Positions 9,358 to 39,881 of a DNA stretch of 64,000 bases are shown in pieces (the stretch's first letter is position 1; each line of letters begins with the position of its first letter). The stretch is from Rubrivirga marina (GTDB lineage: Bacteria; Bacteroidota; Rhodothermia; Rhodothermales; Rubricoccaceae), in assembly GCF_002283365.1 (NCBI RefSeq), contig NZ_MQWD01000001.1, positions 1,106,202 through 1,170,201 on the forward strand. Reading direction: 5' to 3'. Made by a program: the position numbers and the translations under genes. The notes under the pieces were generated by a model. The model searched no databases. It had not been told where the DNA came from and worked only from the letters and a program-made list of their open reading frames with translations.

Positions 9358-10668
9358 TCAGGAGAGGAGCGCGGCGAGCCGGCCCGCGACGTCGTCGGCG
9401 TCGGCGTCGGCGGGGCCCTGGCGGAGGAAGGCGGTGAGGGCCGGCGCGAGCTCGACGGCCCGGTCGGCCTCGGGGTCCTGGCCCGGCTCGAAAGCGCCGA
9501 CGCGGACGAGCGGCTCGACCTCGCGGTAGGCCGCGATGAGCGCCCGCGCCTGCCGCGCGGCCTCCTGCTGGGCCGGCGGCGTCACGCGCGGCATCACGCG
9601 GCTCACGCTCGCGGGCACGTCGATGGCCGGGAAATGGCCCGAATCGGCCAGCTTCCGCGAGAGGACGACGTGGCCGTCGAGGATGCCGCGGACGGCGTCG
9701 GCGACGGGCTCGTCGAGGTCGCCACCGTCGACGAGGACGGTGAACAGACCGGTGATCGTCCCGCGCGCGCCGGGGCCGGCGCGCTCGAGGAGGCGGGGGA
9801 GGAGCGCGAACACGCTCGGCGTGTAGCCCCGCGTCGTCGGCGGCTCGCCGGCGGCCAGCCCGATCTCGCGCTGGGCTTGGGCCACGCGCGTGACCGAGTC
9901 CATCATGAGGAGGACGTCTTTTCCGGCGTCGCGGAAATGCTCGGCGATGGCCGTCGCCACGAGCGAGCCGCGGACGCGGGCCAGCGCGGCCTGGTCGCCG
10001 GTGACGGCGACGACGACGGATCGCTTGAGCCCCTCCTCGCCGAGCGTGTCGTGGACGAACTCGCGGACCTCGCGGCCCCGCTCGCCGATCAGCGCGATCA
10101 CGTTGACGTCGGCCTCGGAGCGCGCGGCGATCGTCCCGAGGAGCGTGCTCTTGCCCACGCCGGACCCCGCGAAGATGCCGACGCGCTGGCCCTTGGCGAG
10201 CGTGAGGAGCGCGTCGATGGCGCGGACGCCGGTCTTGAGCGGGGCGTCGATGAGCTGGCGGTCGAGCGGCGGCGGCGGCTCGGCCCGGACGGGGCGGCGG
10301 TCGGGGAGCGCCAGCGGGCCCTTCCCGTCGATCGGCCGGCCGGCGGCGTCGACCACGCGGCCCAGGAGCGCGTCGCCGACGGCGACGGCGTGGGGGCGGG
10401 CGGCGCGCTCGACGAGGCTGCCGGCGCGGAGCCCCGCGGCCTCGCCGAGCGGCATCAGGAGCGCGGCCGAGCCGCGGATTCCGATGACCTCGGCCTCGAC
10501 CGGGGCCACGCCGTCGGCCCGGCCGTCGGGTCGGATCGTGCACATCTCGCCGATGGCGGCGTCGAGGCCGGCGGCCTCGACCACGAGGCCGGTCGCGGAG
10601 CGGACGCGCCCGTAGCGGATCGGGCGCGGCGGGGCCTGGCGGAGCTCTTGGAGGCAGTGGCTGAGCAT
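9358..10668 (-). CDS. fliI: Flagellum-specific ATP synthase FliI
   Basis: 436 residues. An N-terminal beta-barrel domain precedes the Walker A motif GIFAGSGVGKSTLLG. The catalytic glutamate region LIGERGREVREF, Walker B DVLLMMDSVTR and the FliI/type III motif GEPPTTRGYTPSVFALLP follow. It energises unfolding and entry of export substrates. It is three bases from fliH, its regulator. Length and motifs are typical. Confidence 0.97.
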   Translation of the reverse strand: MLSHCLQELRQAPPRPIRYGRVRSATGLVVEAAGLDAAIGEMCTIRPDGRADGVAPVEAEVIGIRGSAALLMPLGEAAGLRAGSLVERAARPHAVAVGDALLGRVVDAAGRPIDGKGPLALPDRRPVRAEPPPPLDRQLIDAPLKTGVRAIDALLTLAKGQRVGIFAGSGVGKSTLLGTIAARSEADVNVIALIGERGREVREFVHDTLGEEGLKRSVVVAVTGDQAALARVRGSLVATAIAEHFRDAGKDVLLMMDSVTRVAQAQREIGLAAGEPPTTRGYTPSVFALLPRLLERAGPGARGTITGLFTVLVDGGDLDEPVADAVRGILDGHVVLSRKLADSGHFPAIDVPASVSRVMPRVTPPAQQEAARQARALIAAYREVEPLVRVGAFEPGQDPEADRAVELAPALTAFLRQGPADADADDVAGRLAALLS

Positions 10669-10671
10669 CGG

Positions 10672-11403
10672 CTAGAGCGGGTCGAGGCCGAGGCGGTCGC
10701 GGAGCCCGGCCAGCATCTCGTCGCGGACCCGACGGACGGTGGCGACGGACGTGGTGGCGGTCCAGTCGCCCTCGGCGAGCGACGGGTCGGGCTCCCAGCG
10801 GAGGCCCGGGTGGGCCCCGCCCAGCGACGCGGCGAGGCCGGCCTCCTCGATCCGGAGGAGGTCGACGGGGTGGAGCGCCACGACGACGGGGCCCTCGCCG
10901 GCGAGGGCGTCGATGGCCTCGGCCACGGCCGCCTCGGTGGCCGCCCGCTGGGGGTCGGAGAGGGGCGCGGCGAGGACGGCCTCGGCCGTCTCGATCGCGA
11001 GCGCGGCCAGCGTCGGCTGGAGCTCGCGGACGGCCCCGTCCCACAGTCCGCGCAGCCGCTCGGTGGCGGCGTCGACGGTGGCGGCGCGGGCCTCGGCGGC
11101 GGCTTCTGCCTCGGCGAGCGCGGCCCCGAGGCGGTCGACCTCGGCCTGGAGCGCCTCGACCTCGGCGTCGCGCGCGGCGTGGCCGGCTCGGCGGCCCTCC
11201 TCGAACGACGCGGCGGGGTCCGGCGGGGGCTCGGGCGTGGCCTCCGGCGGGGCCTCCGGCGGGGCGGCGGCGATCAGCCCCGCAAGCGGGACGAACGCAG
11301 GGAGATCGTTGCCAATCACCTGAGCGTCGGCCGTCAGCTCGGCGAAGCGGTGGGGCGCCGGCTCGGCGCCGCGGAGGACACGGACGGGGGGCGACGGCGT
11401 CAC
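10672..11403 (-). CDS. fliH: Flagellar assembly protein FliH
   Basis: 243 residues from a GTG at 11403, one base away from the fliG stop. The N-terminus is Pro-rich. A long helical region (about 65-135) with a GRRAGHAARDAEVEAL start leads to a C-terminal V-ATPase subunit E-like domain ending in DWTATTSVATVRRVRDEML. FliH binds and inhibits FliI and docks it at the C-ring. Position between fliG and fliI is canonical. Confidence 0.9.
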   Translation of the reverse strand: MTPSPPVRVLRGAEPAPHRFAELTADAQVIGNDLPAFVPLAGLIAAAPPEAPPEATPEPPPDPAASFEEGRRAGHAARDAEVEALQAEVDRLGAALAEAEAAAEARAATVDAATERLRGLWDGAVRELQPTLAALAIETAEAVLAAPLSDPQRAATEAAVAEAIDALAGEGPVVVALHPVDLLRIEEAGLAASLGGAHPGLRWEPDPSLAEGDWTATTSVATVRRVRDEMLAGLRDRLGLDPL

Positions 11404-34165: not shown

Positions 34166-36487
34166 TCAGGAGGCGCCGTTCCCGTCGCTCGTCGCGATCT
34201 GGAAGCCAATGGGGCGGCTGCCGCGCGGGTCCTCCTGCTTGAGCTGCTTCCGCATCCGCTCGTACTCCTTCTCGACCTCCGGCGTCACGCTCGGCCGCGT
34301 GTCCTCGAGCGCCCGCTCGAAGTCGCTAGAGGTGACGGTCTCGGTGTCGAGGTCGGCGCGGAGCGCCAGCAGGCCGGCCTTCCGGACGAGGTTCTCGAGG
34401 TCGGCCCCGGAGAACCGCTCGGTCCGCTCGGCGAGAGAATCGAGGTCGACGTCGTCGGCGAGCGGCATGGCGCCGGTCTGGATCTCGAGGATCCGGCGGC
34501 GGCCCTCCTGGTCGGGCACCGGCACGTACACGATCTCGTCGAACCGGCCCGGGCGGAGGAGCGCCGGGTCGAGGAGCGTCGGCCGGTTCGTCGCGCCGAC
34601 GACCACGACGCCCTGGAGCTCTTCGAGCCCGTCCATCTCCGCGAGCAGCGTGTTGACCACGCGCTCGGTCACGTTCGAGTCGCCGAACGAGCCGCCGCGG
34701 GCCGGCGCCAGCGCGTCGATCTCGTCGATGAAGATGACCGTCGGCGAGACCTGGCGGGCGCGCTTGAAAAGCTTCGACACCTGCTTCTCGCTTTCGCCGA
34801 CCCACTTGCTCAGCAGGTCGCTCGACTTCGTCGCGATAAAGTTGGCCTCGGCCTCGCGGGCGACGGCCTTCGCGAGGAGCGTCTTCCCGTTGCCGGGAGG
34901 CCCAAAGAGGAGGAAGCCACGGGCCTGGCGGATGCCGAGCCGGCGGAACGCGTCGGGGTGCTTGAGCGGGAGCTCGATACCTTCCTGGAGCTGCTGCTTC
35001 GTCTCCTCCAGCCCGCCGATGTCGTTCCAGCCGACGTTCGGGACCTGGATCTGGATCTCGCGGAGCGCGCTCGGCTGGACCCGCTTGATGGCGTCCCCGA
35101 AGTCGTCGTCCGTTACGACGAGCTCGTCGAGGACCTCGGCCGGGATCTCGTCCAGGTCGAGGTCGAGCCCGGGGAGGACGCGCCGGAGCGCAGAGATGGC
35201 GGCCTCACGCGCCAGCGCGCCGAGGTCGGCCCCGACGAACCCGTAGGTCGTCCGCGCGAGCGTCTCGAGGTCGACGCCCTCGGCGAGCGGCATCCCTCGG
35301 GTGTGGATGTTGAGGATCTCCCGGCGGCCCTGCGTGTCCGGCACGCCGATCACGATCTCGCGGTCGAACCGGCCCGGCCGGCGGAGCGCCTCGTCGATGG
35401 CGTCCGGCCGGTTCGTCGCGCCGATCACGACGACGTTGCCGCGGGCCTCCAGCCCGTCGAGGAGCGTCAGGAGCTGGGCGACGACGCGGCGCTCGGCCTC
35501 GCCGGTCTCGTCGCGCGCCGGCGCGATCGAGTCGATCTCGTCGATGAAGATGATGGCCGGCGCCTGCGCTTCGGCCTCCTCGAACACCTCGCGGAGGCGG
35601 CCCTCGCTCTCGCCGTAGTACCGGCCCATGATCTCGGGCCCGTTGATGACCGAGAAGTGGGCGTTCGTCTCGTTGGCGACGGCGCGCGCCAGCAGCGTCT
35701 TGCCGGTCCCGGGCGGTCCGTAGAGGAGCACGCCCTTCGGCGGGTCGATGCCGAGGCGGGCGAACAGCTCGGGGTGCTTGAGCGGGAGCTCGATCATCTC
35801 GCGGACCTGGTCGACCGTGTCGCCGAGGCCGCCGATGTCGTCGTAGGTGATGCCGATGGGCGGCTCGCCGTCGCTGGGCTCCTGGTACTCCGGGAGGAGC
35901 TCGATCTCGGTCTGCTCCGTGACCTGGACGATCCCGCGCGGGCTCGTGCTCGTCACGATGAGGCGGATCTCCTGGAGCCCGAACGCCCGCTGCTGGCCGA
36001 ACAGGCGCTGCGCGACCTCGGGCGGGAGGCCGGGGATCCCGTCCTGCGGGCCGGGCTGGCTGCGGTAGACGCTCGTCGAGACCGTGTCGCCGGTCACGAG
36101 CGGGCGGCCGAGGAGCGTCCGGAGGAGCGCCTGGCCGCGGCCCTGGAGGCGGACGCCCGGCTGGGCCGGCGCCAGCGTCACCCTCGCCGCCGGCTGGACG
36201 CGCGCGACGGCGACCTCGACGTGGTCGCCCATCGACACGCCGGCGTTGGCGCGGACGAGGCCGTCGAGGCGGATGATCCCGAGCCCGGCGTCGGCGGGGT
36301 AGGGCGGGAAGGCGATGGCGGCCGTCGTATTTTTCGGCCCACGGAGCTCGACGATGGCGCCGGGCGAGACGCCGAGCTCGGTCAGCGCCTCCTGGCTCAG
36401 CCGAGCGATGCTCTTGCCGAAGTCGGGGTTTTGGGCGCCGGCCACCTGGAGCCGGACGGTGTCGGTCTGAGTCGGGACTTCGGCCAT
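34166..36487 (-). CDS. CDC48/VAT-like double AAA+ ATPase
   Basis: 773 residues. A CDC48-type N-domain (about 8-185: FGKSIARLSQEALTELGV, then GPKNTTAAIAFPPYPADAG) precedes two AAA+ modules. D1 has LYGPPGTGKTLLARAVANET, FIDEIDSIAPAR and GATNRPDAIDEALRRPGRFD. D2 has FGPPGNGKTLLAKAVAREA, FIDEIDALAPARGG and GATNRPTLLDPALLRPGRFD. This is full-length CDC48/p97/VAT architecture, a hexameric unfoldase best known in archaea and eukaryotes and only scattered in bacteria. D2 Walker A has Asn in place of the usual Thr (GNGKT). The C-terminus lacks an HbYX proteasome-docking end. Single-gene unit flanked by repeats. Confidence 0.95.
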   Translation of the reverse strand: MAEVPTQTDTVRLQVAGAQNPDFGKSIARLSQEALTELGVSPGAIVELRGPKNTTAAIAFPPYPADAGLGIIRLDGLVRANAGVSMGDHVEVAVARVQPAARVTLAPAQPGVRLQGRGQALLRTLLGRPLVTGDTVSTSVYRSQPGPQDGIPGLPPEVAQRLFGQQRAFGLQEIRLIVTSTSPRGIVQVTEQTEIELLPEYQEPSDGEPPIGITYDDIGGLGDTVDQVREMIELPLKHPELFARLGIDPPKGVLLYGPPGTGKTLLARAVANETNAHFSVINGPEIMGRYYGESEGRLREVFEEAEAQAPAIIFIDEIDSIAPARDETGEAERRVVAQLLTLLDGLEARGNVVVIGATNRPDAIDEALRRPGRFDREIVIGVPDTQGRREILNIHTRGMPLAEGVDLETLARTTYGFVGADLGALAREAAISALRRVLPGLDLDLDEIPAEVLDELVVTDDDFGDAIKRVQPSALREIQIQVPNVGWNDIGGLEETKQQLQEGIELPLKHPDAFRRLGIRQARGFLLFGPPGNGKTLLAKAVAREAEANFIATKSSDLLSKWVGESEKQVSKLFKRARQVSPTVIFIDEIDALAPARGGSFGDSNVTERVVNTLLAEMDGLEELQGVVVVGATNRPTLLDPALLRPGRFDEIVYVPVPDQEGRRRILEIQTGAMPLADDVDLDSLAERTERFSGADLENLVRKAGLLALRADLDTETVTSSDFERALEDTRPSVTPEVEKEYERMRKQLKQEDPRGSRPIGFQIATSDGNGAS

Positions 36488-36620: not shown

Positions 36621-37319
36621 CTAAAACGTGAACGTCACGCCGAGGTGCGGGGCCAGGAAGTCCGTCCGCGACCGGCGCGGGTACACGCGGATCGTCCCGT
36701 CGCGGAACCGGTCGATGTCGCCGCGTCCGAGGAACGTCGCTTCCGTGCCCGAGAGGTAGCGGACGCGGGCGTCGAGCGAGACCGACCCGGGGCGCCCCTC
36801 ATCGGTGTCGAACGACCCGAGGCGGACCTGCACACCGAGGCCGGCGCCGGTCGTGAACGCGAGGTCGTCGTAGTTGACCGACGAGAGCGGCTCGCCGTAC
36901 CCGCTGCCGTAGTGGTCGTCGTCGCCGACGCTCGTCTCGGTGAACAGGTACGTCAGCCCGGCCACGCCGTCGACGTACGGTCGGACGGCGCCGCCGGGGA
37001 CCTGGAGCCGGAGGACCGCCAATCCCTGGGCGAGGTTGTTCGACGTCGTCACGCCGACGCGGACGTCGGGGATCGTGAGGGAGAGCGGGACTTCGCGGCG
37101 CTCGTAGCCGTAGAGCGCGACGGTCCCTTCGAGTCCGACGGCGACCGGCGAGCGTGGGACGTTGTAGAAGGCGCCGACCGCGAGCCCGCCGCCGGCCGTT
37201 CCGAGCGCGTCGGCGAACGAGCCCTGGGGGACGGCCGCGAAGCCGGAGACGGTGACCGACGGCTGGGCCGAGACGGCGACCGAGGCGAGCAAGGGCACGA
37301 GGAGGAGCAGGGTGCGCAT
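36621..37319 (-). CDS. Outer-membrane beta-barrel protein, function unknown
   Basis: 232 residues from ATG 37319. Signal peptide RTLLLLVPLLASVAVSAQ is followed by alternating amphipathic strands (VTVSGFAAVPQGSFADAL, VAVGLEGTVALYGY, FTTGAGLGVQVRLGSF). It ends in LGVTFTF with terminal Phe, the barrel-insertion signal. Size suggests an 8-10 stranded OmpW/OmpX-like barrel. No specific family could be named. Confidence 0.75.
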   Translation of the reverse strand: MRTLLLLVPLLASVAVSAQPSVTVSGFAAVPQGSFADALGTAGGGLAVGAFYNVPRSPVAVGLEGTVALYGYERREVPLSLTIPDVRVGVTTSNNLAQGLAVLRLQVPGGAVRPYVDGVAGLTYLFTETSVGDDDHYGSGYGEPLSSVNYDDLAFTTGAGLGVQVRLGSFDTDEGRPGSVSLDARVRYLSGTEATFLGRGDIDRFRDGTIRVYPRRSRTDFLAPHLGVTFTF

Positions 37320-37574
37320 GGCCAGGGGGAGAGGAGGTGTGAGCACGTTCTCTGCCGCCGCGCGCTCGCCTCAGGTCACACGGGCAAGCCCCGTTTCTGA
37401 AGGGGTTGGCGACGGGTCCGATACAGATCTCTCGCTGTCGGGCCGAGGCCCTGGGTCGAGGTCAGGTCGACCCCGACGGGCGCGCCCCGGCGAACGGAGG
37501 GCGACGGCGCGGGTTGACGTCCTCCACTTATCCCTCCGCCCGGGGATCTCGAGTCCATCCTCTACACCGTCTAC

Positions 37575-38252
37575 GTGGCCTCCATGGCCGCCGGCGCGCT
37601 CCTGTTCATTACCTGGTCTCGTGACCCGAAGGGCGTTCCGGTCTGGGAGTACCTGGTCGCCGCGATCATCCCGGTGTGGTCGGGCCTCGCCTACCTCGCG
37701 ATGGGGCTGGGCCTGGGGACCGTCGAGGTCGCCGGTCAGACGACCTATTGGGCCCGCTACGCCGATTGGGTGGTCACGACCCCGCTCCTCCTGGCGGCCC
37801 TCTGGATGACGGCGACGACGCGCTCCGACAAGCGGCCCCACGTCCCGACGCTCCTCACGCTCGTCGCCGCCGACGTGGTGATGATCCTGTCCGGTCTCGT
37901 CGCGGACCTGTCCGAGGGCAGCGCGCGCCTCGTGTTCTACGGCGTCGGCGTGGCCGCATTGGCGGTCGTGTTCTGGACGGCGTTCACGTCGCTGCGCCGG
38001 GTGGCCCATCAGGACGCCGCAGTGGGGCGGATCTACGACCGCGTCGCCCTCTACCTCGCCCTGTTCTGGGTCGGCTACCCGCTCACCTGGATCCTCGGGC
38101 CGTCGGGCTTCGGGGTCGTCGGCCAGGACGTCGACACGGCGCTGTTCATCTTGCTGCCGATCTTTTCCAAGGTCGGGTTCAGCGTCTACGACCTGAGCCT
38201 GCTCCGCCGGCTGAGCACCGAGGGCGCGCGGGTCCCGGCGCGCCCCGCTTGA
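37575..38252 (+). CDS. Xenorhodopsin (Anabaena sensory rhodopsin clade); true N-terminus lies upstream
   Basis: Retinal-binding seven-helix protein. From this GTG it has 225 residues, but homology continues upstream without a break (DLESILYTVYV from 37545), so the start is unresolved. Counting from codon 37542, the numbering matches Anabaena sensory rhodopsin as I recall it: helix C YWARYADWVVTTPLLLA with Asp75, Thr79 and Ala86 (BR Asp96 site), retinal Lys210 in LLPIFSKVGFSVYDL, Pro206 replacing the otherwise near-universal BR Asp212, and Asp217 on the cytoplasmic side. The GYPLTWILGPSGFG segment also matches. Pro206 plus Asp217 is the xenorhodopsin signature; characterised members include inward proton pumps. 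No retinal synthesis or transducer gene is adjacent. Confidence 0.88.
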   Translation: MASMAAGALLFITWSRDPKGVPVWEYLVAAIIPVWSGLAYLAMGLGLGTVEVAGQTTYWARYADWVVTTPLLLAALWMTATTRSDKRPHVPTLLTLVAADVVMILSGLVADLSEGSARLVFYGVGVAALAVVFWTAFTSLRRVAHQDAAVGRIYDRVALYLALFWVGYPLTWILGPSGFGVVGQDVDTALFILLPIFSKVGFSVYDLSLLRRLSTEGARVPARPA

Positions 38253-38383
38253 TCACCGAGCCGGGCCCGCAACGGGTGCGCCGTGGCCTCCCCGAGTGTC
38301 TCGCGGTGGGAGTTCGGGGCGGGCACGGCAGAGGAGAAGGGGCCGTCGTCCCTGTGGATCTCGCTGCGCCGAGGGTGACATCG

Positions 38384-38420
38384 CCCGCCTCGGTGGCTCC
38401 CCGGAGCCCGCCGAGGCCGG
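38384..38420. repeat. Palindromic intergenic repeat, copy 5
   Basis: CCCGCCTCGGTGGCTCC / GGAGCCCGCCGAGGCCGG nested stem. It lies 131 bases after the xenorhodopsin stop and 37 bases before the antiporter ATG. Confidence 0.75.
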
Positions 38421-38456
38421 AGGTGTGGGTACCATCGGGCGTCCCCCCGCCCCGCC

Positions 38457-39881
38457 ATGCCGCCCGAGATCGACCCGACCTGGACCAGCCTCCTCCCACC
38501 GATCCTCGCCATCGGCCTCGCCATCGGGACGCGGCAGGTGTACCTCTCGCTCGGGGCCGGCGTGTGGCTGGGCTACACGATCCTGGCCGGGTGGAACCCG
38601 CTCGCTGGCCTCGGCGGTGCCATTGAGGGGGCCGTCGGCGTGTTCGGGGACGCCGGCAACACGCGCGTGCTGTTGTTCACGCTCGTCATCGGGGCGCTCA
38701 TCGCGACGGTCGAGGCGTCGGGCGGCGTCCGCGGGTTCATCGACACGCTCGAGAAACGGGGCTGGGCGTCGTCGAAGCGCGGGGCGCGGCTGTTGTCGTT
38801 CCTCGTCGGGATCGTCATCTTCATCGAGTCGAACATCACGGTGCTCGTGGCCGGCGCCGTGTCGCGCCCGCTGTTCGACCGCCAGCGGAGCAGCCGCGAG
38901 ATGCTGGCCTACCTCATCGACTCGACGAGCGCGGCCGTCTGCATCCTCATCCCGCTCAACGCGTGGGGCGCCTACGTCCTCGGGCTCCTCAACGAGCAGG
39001 GCGTCGAGGAGCCGCTCCGCCTGTTCGTCCAGTCGATCCCGTTCAACATCTACGCCATCGCCGCGGTGCTCCTGGCCGGCGTCGTGGCCGTCACCGGCTG
39101 GGCGTGGGGACCGATGAAGCGGGCCGAGGACCGGGCCTCGCGCGGCGAGCTGTTCGATCCCGCCGCGGCGCCCGACGTGGACGAGTCGGCCCTCGTGCCG
39201 GAGCCGATCGGGACGATCCCGCCGCGCCTCGTCAACATGCTGGTGCCGCTGGGGGTGATGGTCGTCATGATGCCCGTCGGGCTCCTCGTCACGGGCGACG
39301 GCAACCTCCTCGACGGGTCGGGCTCGACGAGCGTGCTGTGGGCCGTGCTGAGTGGCCTCCTGGTGGCGTGGGTCCTCATGCTCGTCCAGCGCGGGATGAC
39401 GGTCGAGCAGCTCACGACGACCGGGCTGAAAGGGGCGGGCGGGATGCTCGGGATGGCCTTCGTGCTCCTGCTCGCCCTCTCGCTCGGGAGCATCACGCGC
39501 GAGCTGGGGGCCGGCGTCTATGTCGCCTCCGGCGTGGCCGAGGCAGGCGTGGGGCCGGCGCTCCTCTTGCCGCTCGTGTTCGTCACCGGCGCGTTCGTCG
39601 CGTTCTCGACCGGGACGAGCTGGGGCACGTTCGCCATCATGATCCCGATCGCCGTTCCGGCCGCGGCGGCGCTCGGGCTGCCGCTCGCGCCGTTCCTCGC
39701 CGCGTCGCTGGCCGGCGGCATCTTCGGCGACCACGCCTCGCCGATCTCCGACACGACGATCGTCTCGTCGCTGGCCGCCGCCACGGACCACATCTCGCAC
39801 GTCCGGACGCAGCTGCCGTACGCGCTCCTCGCGGGCAGCGTCGCCATCGTGGGGTTCGCCCTCATCGGCGCGCTCGTGTAG
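38457..39881 (+). CDS. NhaC-family Na+/H+ antiporter
   Basis: 474 residues, about 11-12 membrane helices. Conserved NhaC/ion-transporter segments include FIESNITVLVAGAVSRPLFD, AYLIDSTSAAVCILIPLNAW, AFSTGTSWGTFAIMIPIA and GGIFGDHASPISDTTIVSS. It exchanges sodium (or another cation or organic anion in some relatives) for protons across the inner membrane. It lies downstream of the xenorhodopsin on the same strand but is separated by a palindromic repeat, so co-transcription is uncertain. Substrate is inferred from family only. Confidence 0.88.
   Translation: MPPEIDPTWTSLLPPILAIGLAIGTRQVYLSLGAGVWLGYTILAGWNPLAGLGGAIEGAVGVFGDAGNTRVLLFTLVIGALIATVEASGGVRGFIDTLEKRGWASSKRGARLLSFLVGIVIFIESNITVLVAGAVSRPLFDRQRSSREMLAYLIDSTSAAVCILIPLNAWGAYVLGLLNEQGVEEPLRLFVQSIPFNIYAIAAVLLAGVVAVTGWAWGPMKRAEDRASRGELFDPAAAPDVDESALVPEPIGTIPPRLVNMLVPLGVMVVMMPVGLLVTGDGNLLDGSGSTSVLWAVLSGLLVAWVLMLVQRGMTVEQLTTTGLKGAGGMLGMAFVLLLALSLGSITRELGAGVYVASGVAEAGVGPALLLPLVFVTGAFVAFSTGTSWGTFAIMIPIAVPAAAALGLPLAPFLAASLAGGIFGDHASPISDTTIVSSLAAATDHISHVRTQLPYALLAGSVAIVGFALIGALV

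Follow-up and report, generated by a model that had tools for sequence, protein, structure and literature searches.

A 64,000-nucleotide stretch of the Rubrivirga marina genome (hereafter the window) carries a xenorhodopsin gene whose product, judging from its published relatives, is very probably a light-driven inward H+ pump. We infer from its sequence that this gene is R28XeR of R. marina SAORIC-28T (WP_095509440), which was named, and its inward H+ pump function predicted, in 2018 (PMC5877348). The gene is thus not new, and apart from its physiology and its start codon it adds little to the known family. An earlier note on this DNA had leaned towards inward pumping, which our analysis likewise supports as the likeliest function, but it had missed both the prior publication and the lack of an ordinary start codon at the homologous position.

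37542 to 38252, forward strand: xenorhodopsin gene (R28XeR) of 236 codons plus a stop, counted from the position at which close relatives have ATG

The gene is identified as R28XeR because the helix-C motifs, the set of three rhodopsins and their mutual identities match the published description (PMC5877348). That source gives SAORIC-28T a genome of 4.98 Mbp with three rhodopsins, termed R28XeR, R28HR1 (TSA) and R28HR2 (TTD), and the genome examined here has 4,981,075 bases and three rhodopsin matches. Helix C of the encoded protein, DWVVTTPLLLAA, is that of the R28XeR row in Table 1 of PMC5877348, where RmXeR has T before the last A, and the helix-C sequences of all three rhodopsins in the genome agree with the same table. 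The two further rhodopsins, L002 (TTD) and L003 (TSA), are taken as R28HR2 and R28HR1, respectively. By local alignment, the halorhodopsins encoded here and in a Rubricoccus-type genome (G004) are 74, 62 and 59% identical to one another, compared with published values of 73, 62 and 57% (PMC5877348). G004 encodes two rhodopsins, and helix C of its xenorhodopsin (L006) reads LLLTA, as printed for RmXeR (PMC5877348); the protein is taken to be RmXeR of Rubricoccus marinus.

The reading frame is open from end to end, and its product is a type-1 microbial rhodopsin (Pfam Bac_rhodopsin, E = 4.1e-53) whose nearest solved sequences are those of Anabaena sensory rhodopsin (ASR; E = 6.7e-63) and the xenorhodopsin BcXeR (7ZMY; E = 1.1e-59). 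With the codon at 37542 counted as residue 1, alignment with RmXeR, ASR and BcXeR reveals D75, T79, A86, P206, K210 and D217, which confirms every residue that the earlier note had named (Asp75, Thr79, Ala86, Pro206 and Asp217). The hallmarks of a xenorhodopsin are evident in the retinal lysine K210, the helix-C aspartate counterion D75, and A86 instead of Asp at the donor site. P206 occupies the site of Asp212 in bacteriorhodopsin, and proline at this site has been proposed as diagnostic for xenorhodopsins (PMC3198991). The same proline at the 212 site, together with A86 at the site of the acidic donor (96/108), departs from what is expected of an outward pump. A further claim, that segments of the protein are near-identical to ASR, is true of short blocks (GPSGFG and FSKVGFS, for example), but not of the protein as a whole, where identity is 49%. 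The AlphaFold prediction, for which 24 related sequences were supplied, is a seven-helix model (mean pLDDT 94). Among the 50 structural matches listed for this model, the best is the inward pump BcXeR (rmsd 0.7 Å), ASR crystal structures rank next (1.3-1.7 Å), and bacteriorhodopsin entries lie at 2.1-2.5 Å.

Matches to R28XeR at E = 1e-25 or better occur in three of the 244 genomes of the class, namely its own, G004 and G144. The last of these belongs to another family and holds a third Rhodothermia xenorhodopsin (L137, 9270-9992), 75% identical to R28XeR (177 of 236 residues), with no other rhodopsin match and no PF15461 match in that genome. We built a 52-row tree that includes 23 xenorhodopsins (drawn from 82 plus the G144 protein), takes in all 26 class rhodopsins, and has just two sequences of outward-pump type. 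A branch supported at 99/94 places the 23 xenorhodopsins, R28XeR among them, on one side and 2 DTE, 21 NDQ and 6 TSA/TTD sequences on the other. A separate tree, which included one outward pump and 6 of the 26 class rhodopsins, also holds 26 xenorhodopsins together (98/95). The xenorhodopsin assignment made earlier is borne out by P206, by K210, D75 and A86, and by the 99/94 clade, and R28XeR stands apart from the few outward pumps tried (two and one in the respective trees).

Within the 52-row tree, R28XeR clusters with RmXeR and the G144 protein (100/100), and this clade lies nearer to L013 and Bacillota sequences (86/91). In an 85-row tree, R28XeR and RmXeR pair (100/99) and the nearest sequences are four Erythrobacteraceae xenorhodopsins (92/83), at a node where the program warned of long branches. 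The xenorhodopsin clade is therefore firm, and the sequences placed closest to the Rhodothermia group change from tree to tree; all the trees were built without the PoXeR and NsXeR sequences. Among viral contigs, none of 24 pattern matches for relatives was confirmed, and an exact search for the start region of R28XeR found nothing.

Relatives for site-by-site comparison were the best 80 of 209 loci, from which L077 (without a usable frame) and L064 (short) were dropped to leave 78 aligned proteins. P206 and D75 are invariant in all 78, a count that is partly circular because the search patterns contained this proline and the helix-C aspartate, and their invariance therefore says little. The D217 column holds Asp in 74 of the 78, Glu in 2 and other residues in 2. 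Site 111 is Asp in R28XeR, RmXeR, BcXeR and all 37 non-cyanobacterial relatives, and Gln in ASR and 40 of the 41 cyanobacterial relatives. Here R28XeR sides with the proteins reported to pump rather than with ASR, although the residue marks lineage and does not prove function. The one cyanobacterial relative with Asp111, L017 (Oculatella), occupies a basal position among the cyanobacterial sequences. Site 132 is Trp in all 78 relatives as well as in ASR and BcXeR, Phe in R28XeR and the G144 protein, and Tyr in RmXeR; judging from this alignment, a residue other than Trp marks the Rhodothermia group. Overall, R28XeR departs from the xenorhodopsins at 4 of 56 near-invariant columns (L58, T92, F132 and F148), compared with 3 for RmXeR and none for the median member, which counts against the inward-pump reading.

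Sequence does not reveal which way such a protein pumps, and both the predicted direction and the predicted proton path are drawn from published work on PoXeR, NsXeR, BcXeR and RmXeR. What our analysis shows directly is the residues, the predicted fold, the clade, purifying selection and the Blh gene. RmXeR is reported to pump H+ inward (PMC5877348, which cites Inoue 2018; also PMC7704677) and to undergo a blue shift on acid titration (PMC7704677), and its clustering with R28XeR has been held to suggest inward H+ pumping for the latter too (PMC5877348). In PoXeR, changes at E35, D74, D108 and D216 lower pumping, apart from D216E, which raises it (PMC5118547). The corresponding residues E36, D75, D111 and D217, as mapped by homology without aligning the PoXeR sequence, are all present in R28XeR, RmXeR and BcXeR. 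A literature search, with most subscription papers outside its reach, found the name R28XeR only in PMC5877348 and found no assay of the protein. The two R. marina halorhodopsins were measured in a 2021 screen, whose 6 mentions of Rubrivirga all concern halorhodopsins (PMC7979833).

By analogy with these proteins, retinal would form a protonated Schiff base with K210, and D75 would be its acidic counterion. Replacement of the second counterion (Asp212 in bacteriorhodopsin) by P206 would weaken the counterion interaction; in PoXeR, the proline removes one counterion charge, D216 takes up the Schiff-base proton on the cytoplasmic side, and a tuning role falls to E35 (PMC5118547). Isomerisation by light would turn the Schiff-base proton towards the cytoplasmic side, where it would exit via waters, S214 and the E36/D217 pair. 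In BcXeR and NsXeR, a chain of waters is described that leads to the counterpart of S214, and data for NsXeR dispute the D217 equivalent as first proton acceptor (PMC13093656). The Schiff base would then be reprotonated from the extracellular half, where D76 is the putative proton donor in NsXeR, and the net result would be H+ carried inward.

It is improbable that R28XeR is instead an ASR-like photosensor that acts via another partner with little or no net pumping. The identity of 49% to ASR, which is described as a sensor, and nearly the same residues at the retinal site are what one would expect of such a protein. What inward pumping does for the cell is unclear, and the authors of the PoXeR work suggested a signalling role for that protein. 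However, the R. marina genome (97% complete) yields no match to the ASR transducer ASRT (PF07100), in a search that matched 1 of 14 control genomes, and no transducer family was detected among the seven neighbouring genes scanned, in agreement with the earlier note. The missing ASRT is weak counter-evidence because xenorhodopsin genomes other than that of Anabaena are reported to lack it (PMC3198991). A photosensor role is also opposed by D111 in place of the Gln of ASR and nearly all cyanobacterial relatives, by a chain shorter than the 261 residues of ASR, and by the report that RmXeR, 74% identical to R28XeR, is a pump (PMC5877348). That the protein pumps H+ outward is extremely improbable. 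The fold and the D75/T79 pair are common to R28XeR and outward pumps, but the proline at the Asp212 site and the lack of an acidic donor (A86) argue otherwise, and the tree parts R28XeR from the DTE sequences, with only two outward-pump-type sequences included. Three codons bear on where translation of R28XeR might begin.

37542 to 37544, forward strand: GGG codon where, by sequence comparison, RmXeR and the G144 xenorhodopsin have ATG
37530 to 37532, forward strand: in-frame ATC, a rare table-11 start that may be the true start
37575 to 37577, forward strand: GTG, the first ordinary in-frame start, which leaves 15 of 24 helix-A residues

The frame is open back to 37518 and has no ATG, GTG or TTG before the GTG at 37575; upstream of it, table 11 offers only two ATC codons, at 37530 and 37557. 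Initiation at this GTG would shorten the protein by 11 residues and remove 9 of the 24 that make up helix A, which spans residues 3-26 in the AlphaFold model. G or C occupies the third position in 3 of 8 codons upstream of 37542 and in 10 of 11 from 37542 on, and this shift, in small numbers, points to a coding start near 37542. Values of dN/dS (NG86) are 0.25 relative to RmXeR (228 codons) and 0.23 relative to the G144 gene (236 codons), and the gene has therefore been kept under selection since its divergence from these relatives. Purifying selection on R28XeR is thus clear, but a very recent loss would leave dN/dS unchanged. We consider a recent loss of the start codon, with the frame otherwise intact and no full-length product, quite improbable. 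Such a loss would account for GGG where both close relatives have ATG, for the lack of ATG, GTG or TTG before residue 12, and for a late start that would strike helix A. It fits poorly with 236 intact codons, with dN/dS of about 0.25, with a third-position GC content of 0.94 over the last 225 codons, and with the in-frame ATC four codons upstream of the GGG. A sequencing error or a rare start would explain the GGG codon equally well, and these two and recent loss are indistinguishable. A promoter and terminator scan of positions 37340-38500 found none, and Rfam at its gathering threshold identified one tRNA only in the whole window.

The R. marina genome has one Blh/Brp match (PF15461, E = 2.6e-58); the retinal-forming step is therefore encoded, by a Blh-type gene of the beta-carotene dioxygenase kind that the earlier note had marked for a genome search. 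Among nine other genomes, Blh was found in G004 and G001 and not in the other seven, which include G144, with its xenorhodopsin, and G007, with halorhodopsins.

No outward H+ pump was found among the three rhodopsins of the R. marina genome. All three look like inward pumps, one for H+ (R28XeR, by inference) and two of halorhodopsin type. The TTD halorhodopsin is reported to pump Cl- (PMC7979833), and Cl- pumping by the TSA rhodopsin may be expected by analogy with RmHR. It is conceivable, if unlikely, that the H+ and halorhodopsin pumps jointly import HCl with little net charge. If so, the effect of light would be to make the cytoplasm more acidic, or to adjust its pH, while the membrane potential is preserved; this would supply the physiological reason for inward H+ pumping that is still lacking. 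G144 speaks against strict pairing of H+ and Cl- pumps, since its close xenorhodopsin is the only rhodopsin match in that genome. The physiological roles of inward H+ pumping are largely unclear (PMC13093656), and R. marina, an isolated type strain that has two halorhodopsins in addition to its probable inward H+ pump, offers a system in which the purpose of such pumping is testable.

The genes that flank R28XeR are as follows.

38457 to 39881, forward strand: NhaC-family Na+/H+ antiporter (PF03553, E = 3.2e-51), a neighbour judged functionally unlinked
36621 to 37346, reverse strand: divergent upstream neighbour with no Pfam match; an 89% identical gene in G007 lies beside a site without xenorhodopsin
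34166 to 36487, reverse strand: CDC48-type AAA ATPase; an 82% identical gene lies near RmXeR in G004 (L092)

The antiporter reported in the earlier note is indeed the neighbour, but the effect on ion homeostasis proposed from this proximity did not survive comparison. NhaC is present in nine of nine genomes of the family, and a xenorhodopsin was detected in two of the nine; the seven assemblies with no detected xenorhodopsin are 81-97% complete. We therefore rejected a link between the two genes. Furthermore, the two genes of G004 are more than 1 Mb apart, at 0.30 and 3.10 Mb on a contig of 3.95 Mb. No NhaC was found by tblastn (E = 1e-5) in the flanks of 80 related loci (the best 80 of 209, with flanks of 8 kb or less, shorter at contig ends, and no nanohaloarchaeal locus included). 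PF03553 occurs somewhere in 33 of 49 genomes searched (from 50 of the 80 loci). Scanning 86 of 143 neighbour frames of non-cyanobacterial xenorhodopsins, as called by a crude script, revealed no family in more than 3, and no Na+/H+ antiporter is among the 25 listed of 132 neighbour families. A conserved antiporter neighbour has been described for two nanohaloarchaeal xenorhodopsins (PMC3198991). The adjacency of NhaC to R28XeR looks incidental and carries little weight.

The CDC48-type ATPase gene lies upstream of the xenorhodopsin in both the window and G004, and the immediately adjoining genes differ. G007 is a close relative (its NhaC shows 96% identity) and has the ATPase, divergent neighbour and NhaC genes in the order seen in the window; the divergent neighbour has one further copy (45% identical). 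Two other genes replace the xenorhodopsin between the divergent neighbour and NhaC of G007 (L131, about 9990-11150), and these are 56% and 36% identical to the two genes adjoining RmXeR in G004. An ancient site common to these genomes, followed by loss in some species, would fit this arrangement. No ATPase gene was detected in the stretches around NhaC of G001, G004, G005, G006 and G008.

Compared with known systems, R28XeR shares with ASR (1XIO) 49% identity and the residues Pro206, D75, E36 and D217. ASR differs in having Gln for D111, S86 for A86, a chain of 261 residues rather than 236, and, according to the literature, the partner ASRT, for which the R. marina genome gave no match. BcXeR of Bacillus coahuilensis (7ZMY) has 50% identity, a structure that fits the model to 0.7 Å, and equivalents of D75, P206, S214 and D217, but carries Ser for T79 and Trp for F132. 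RmXeR of Rubricoccus marinus shares 74% identity over 228 residues, all key residues and a nearby CDC48-type ATPase gene; unlike R28XeR, it has an ordinary ATG start, Y132 in place of F132, and no adjoining NhaC. In the features compared, we found no difference between the gene in the window and R28XeR of R. marina SAORIC-28T, and the two are alike in helix-C motif and in the three-rhodopsin set of their genomes.
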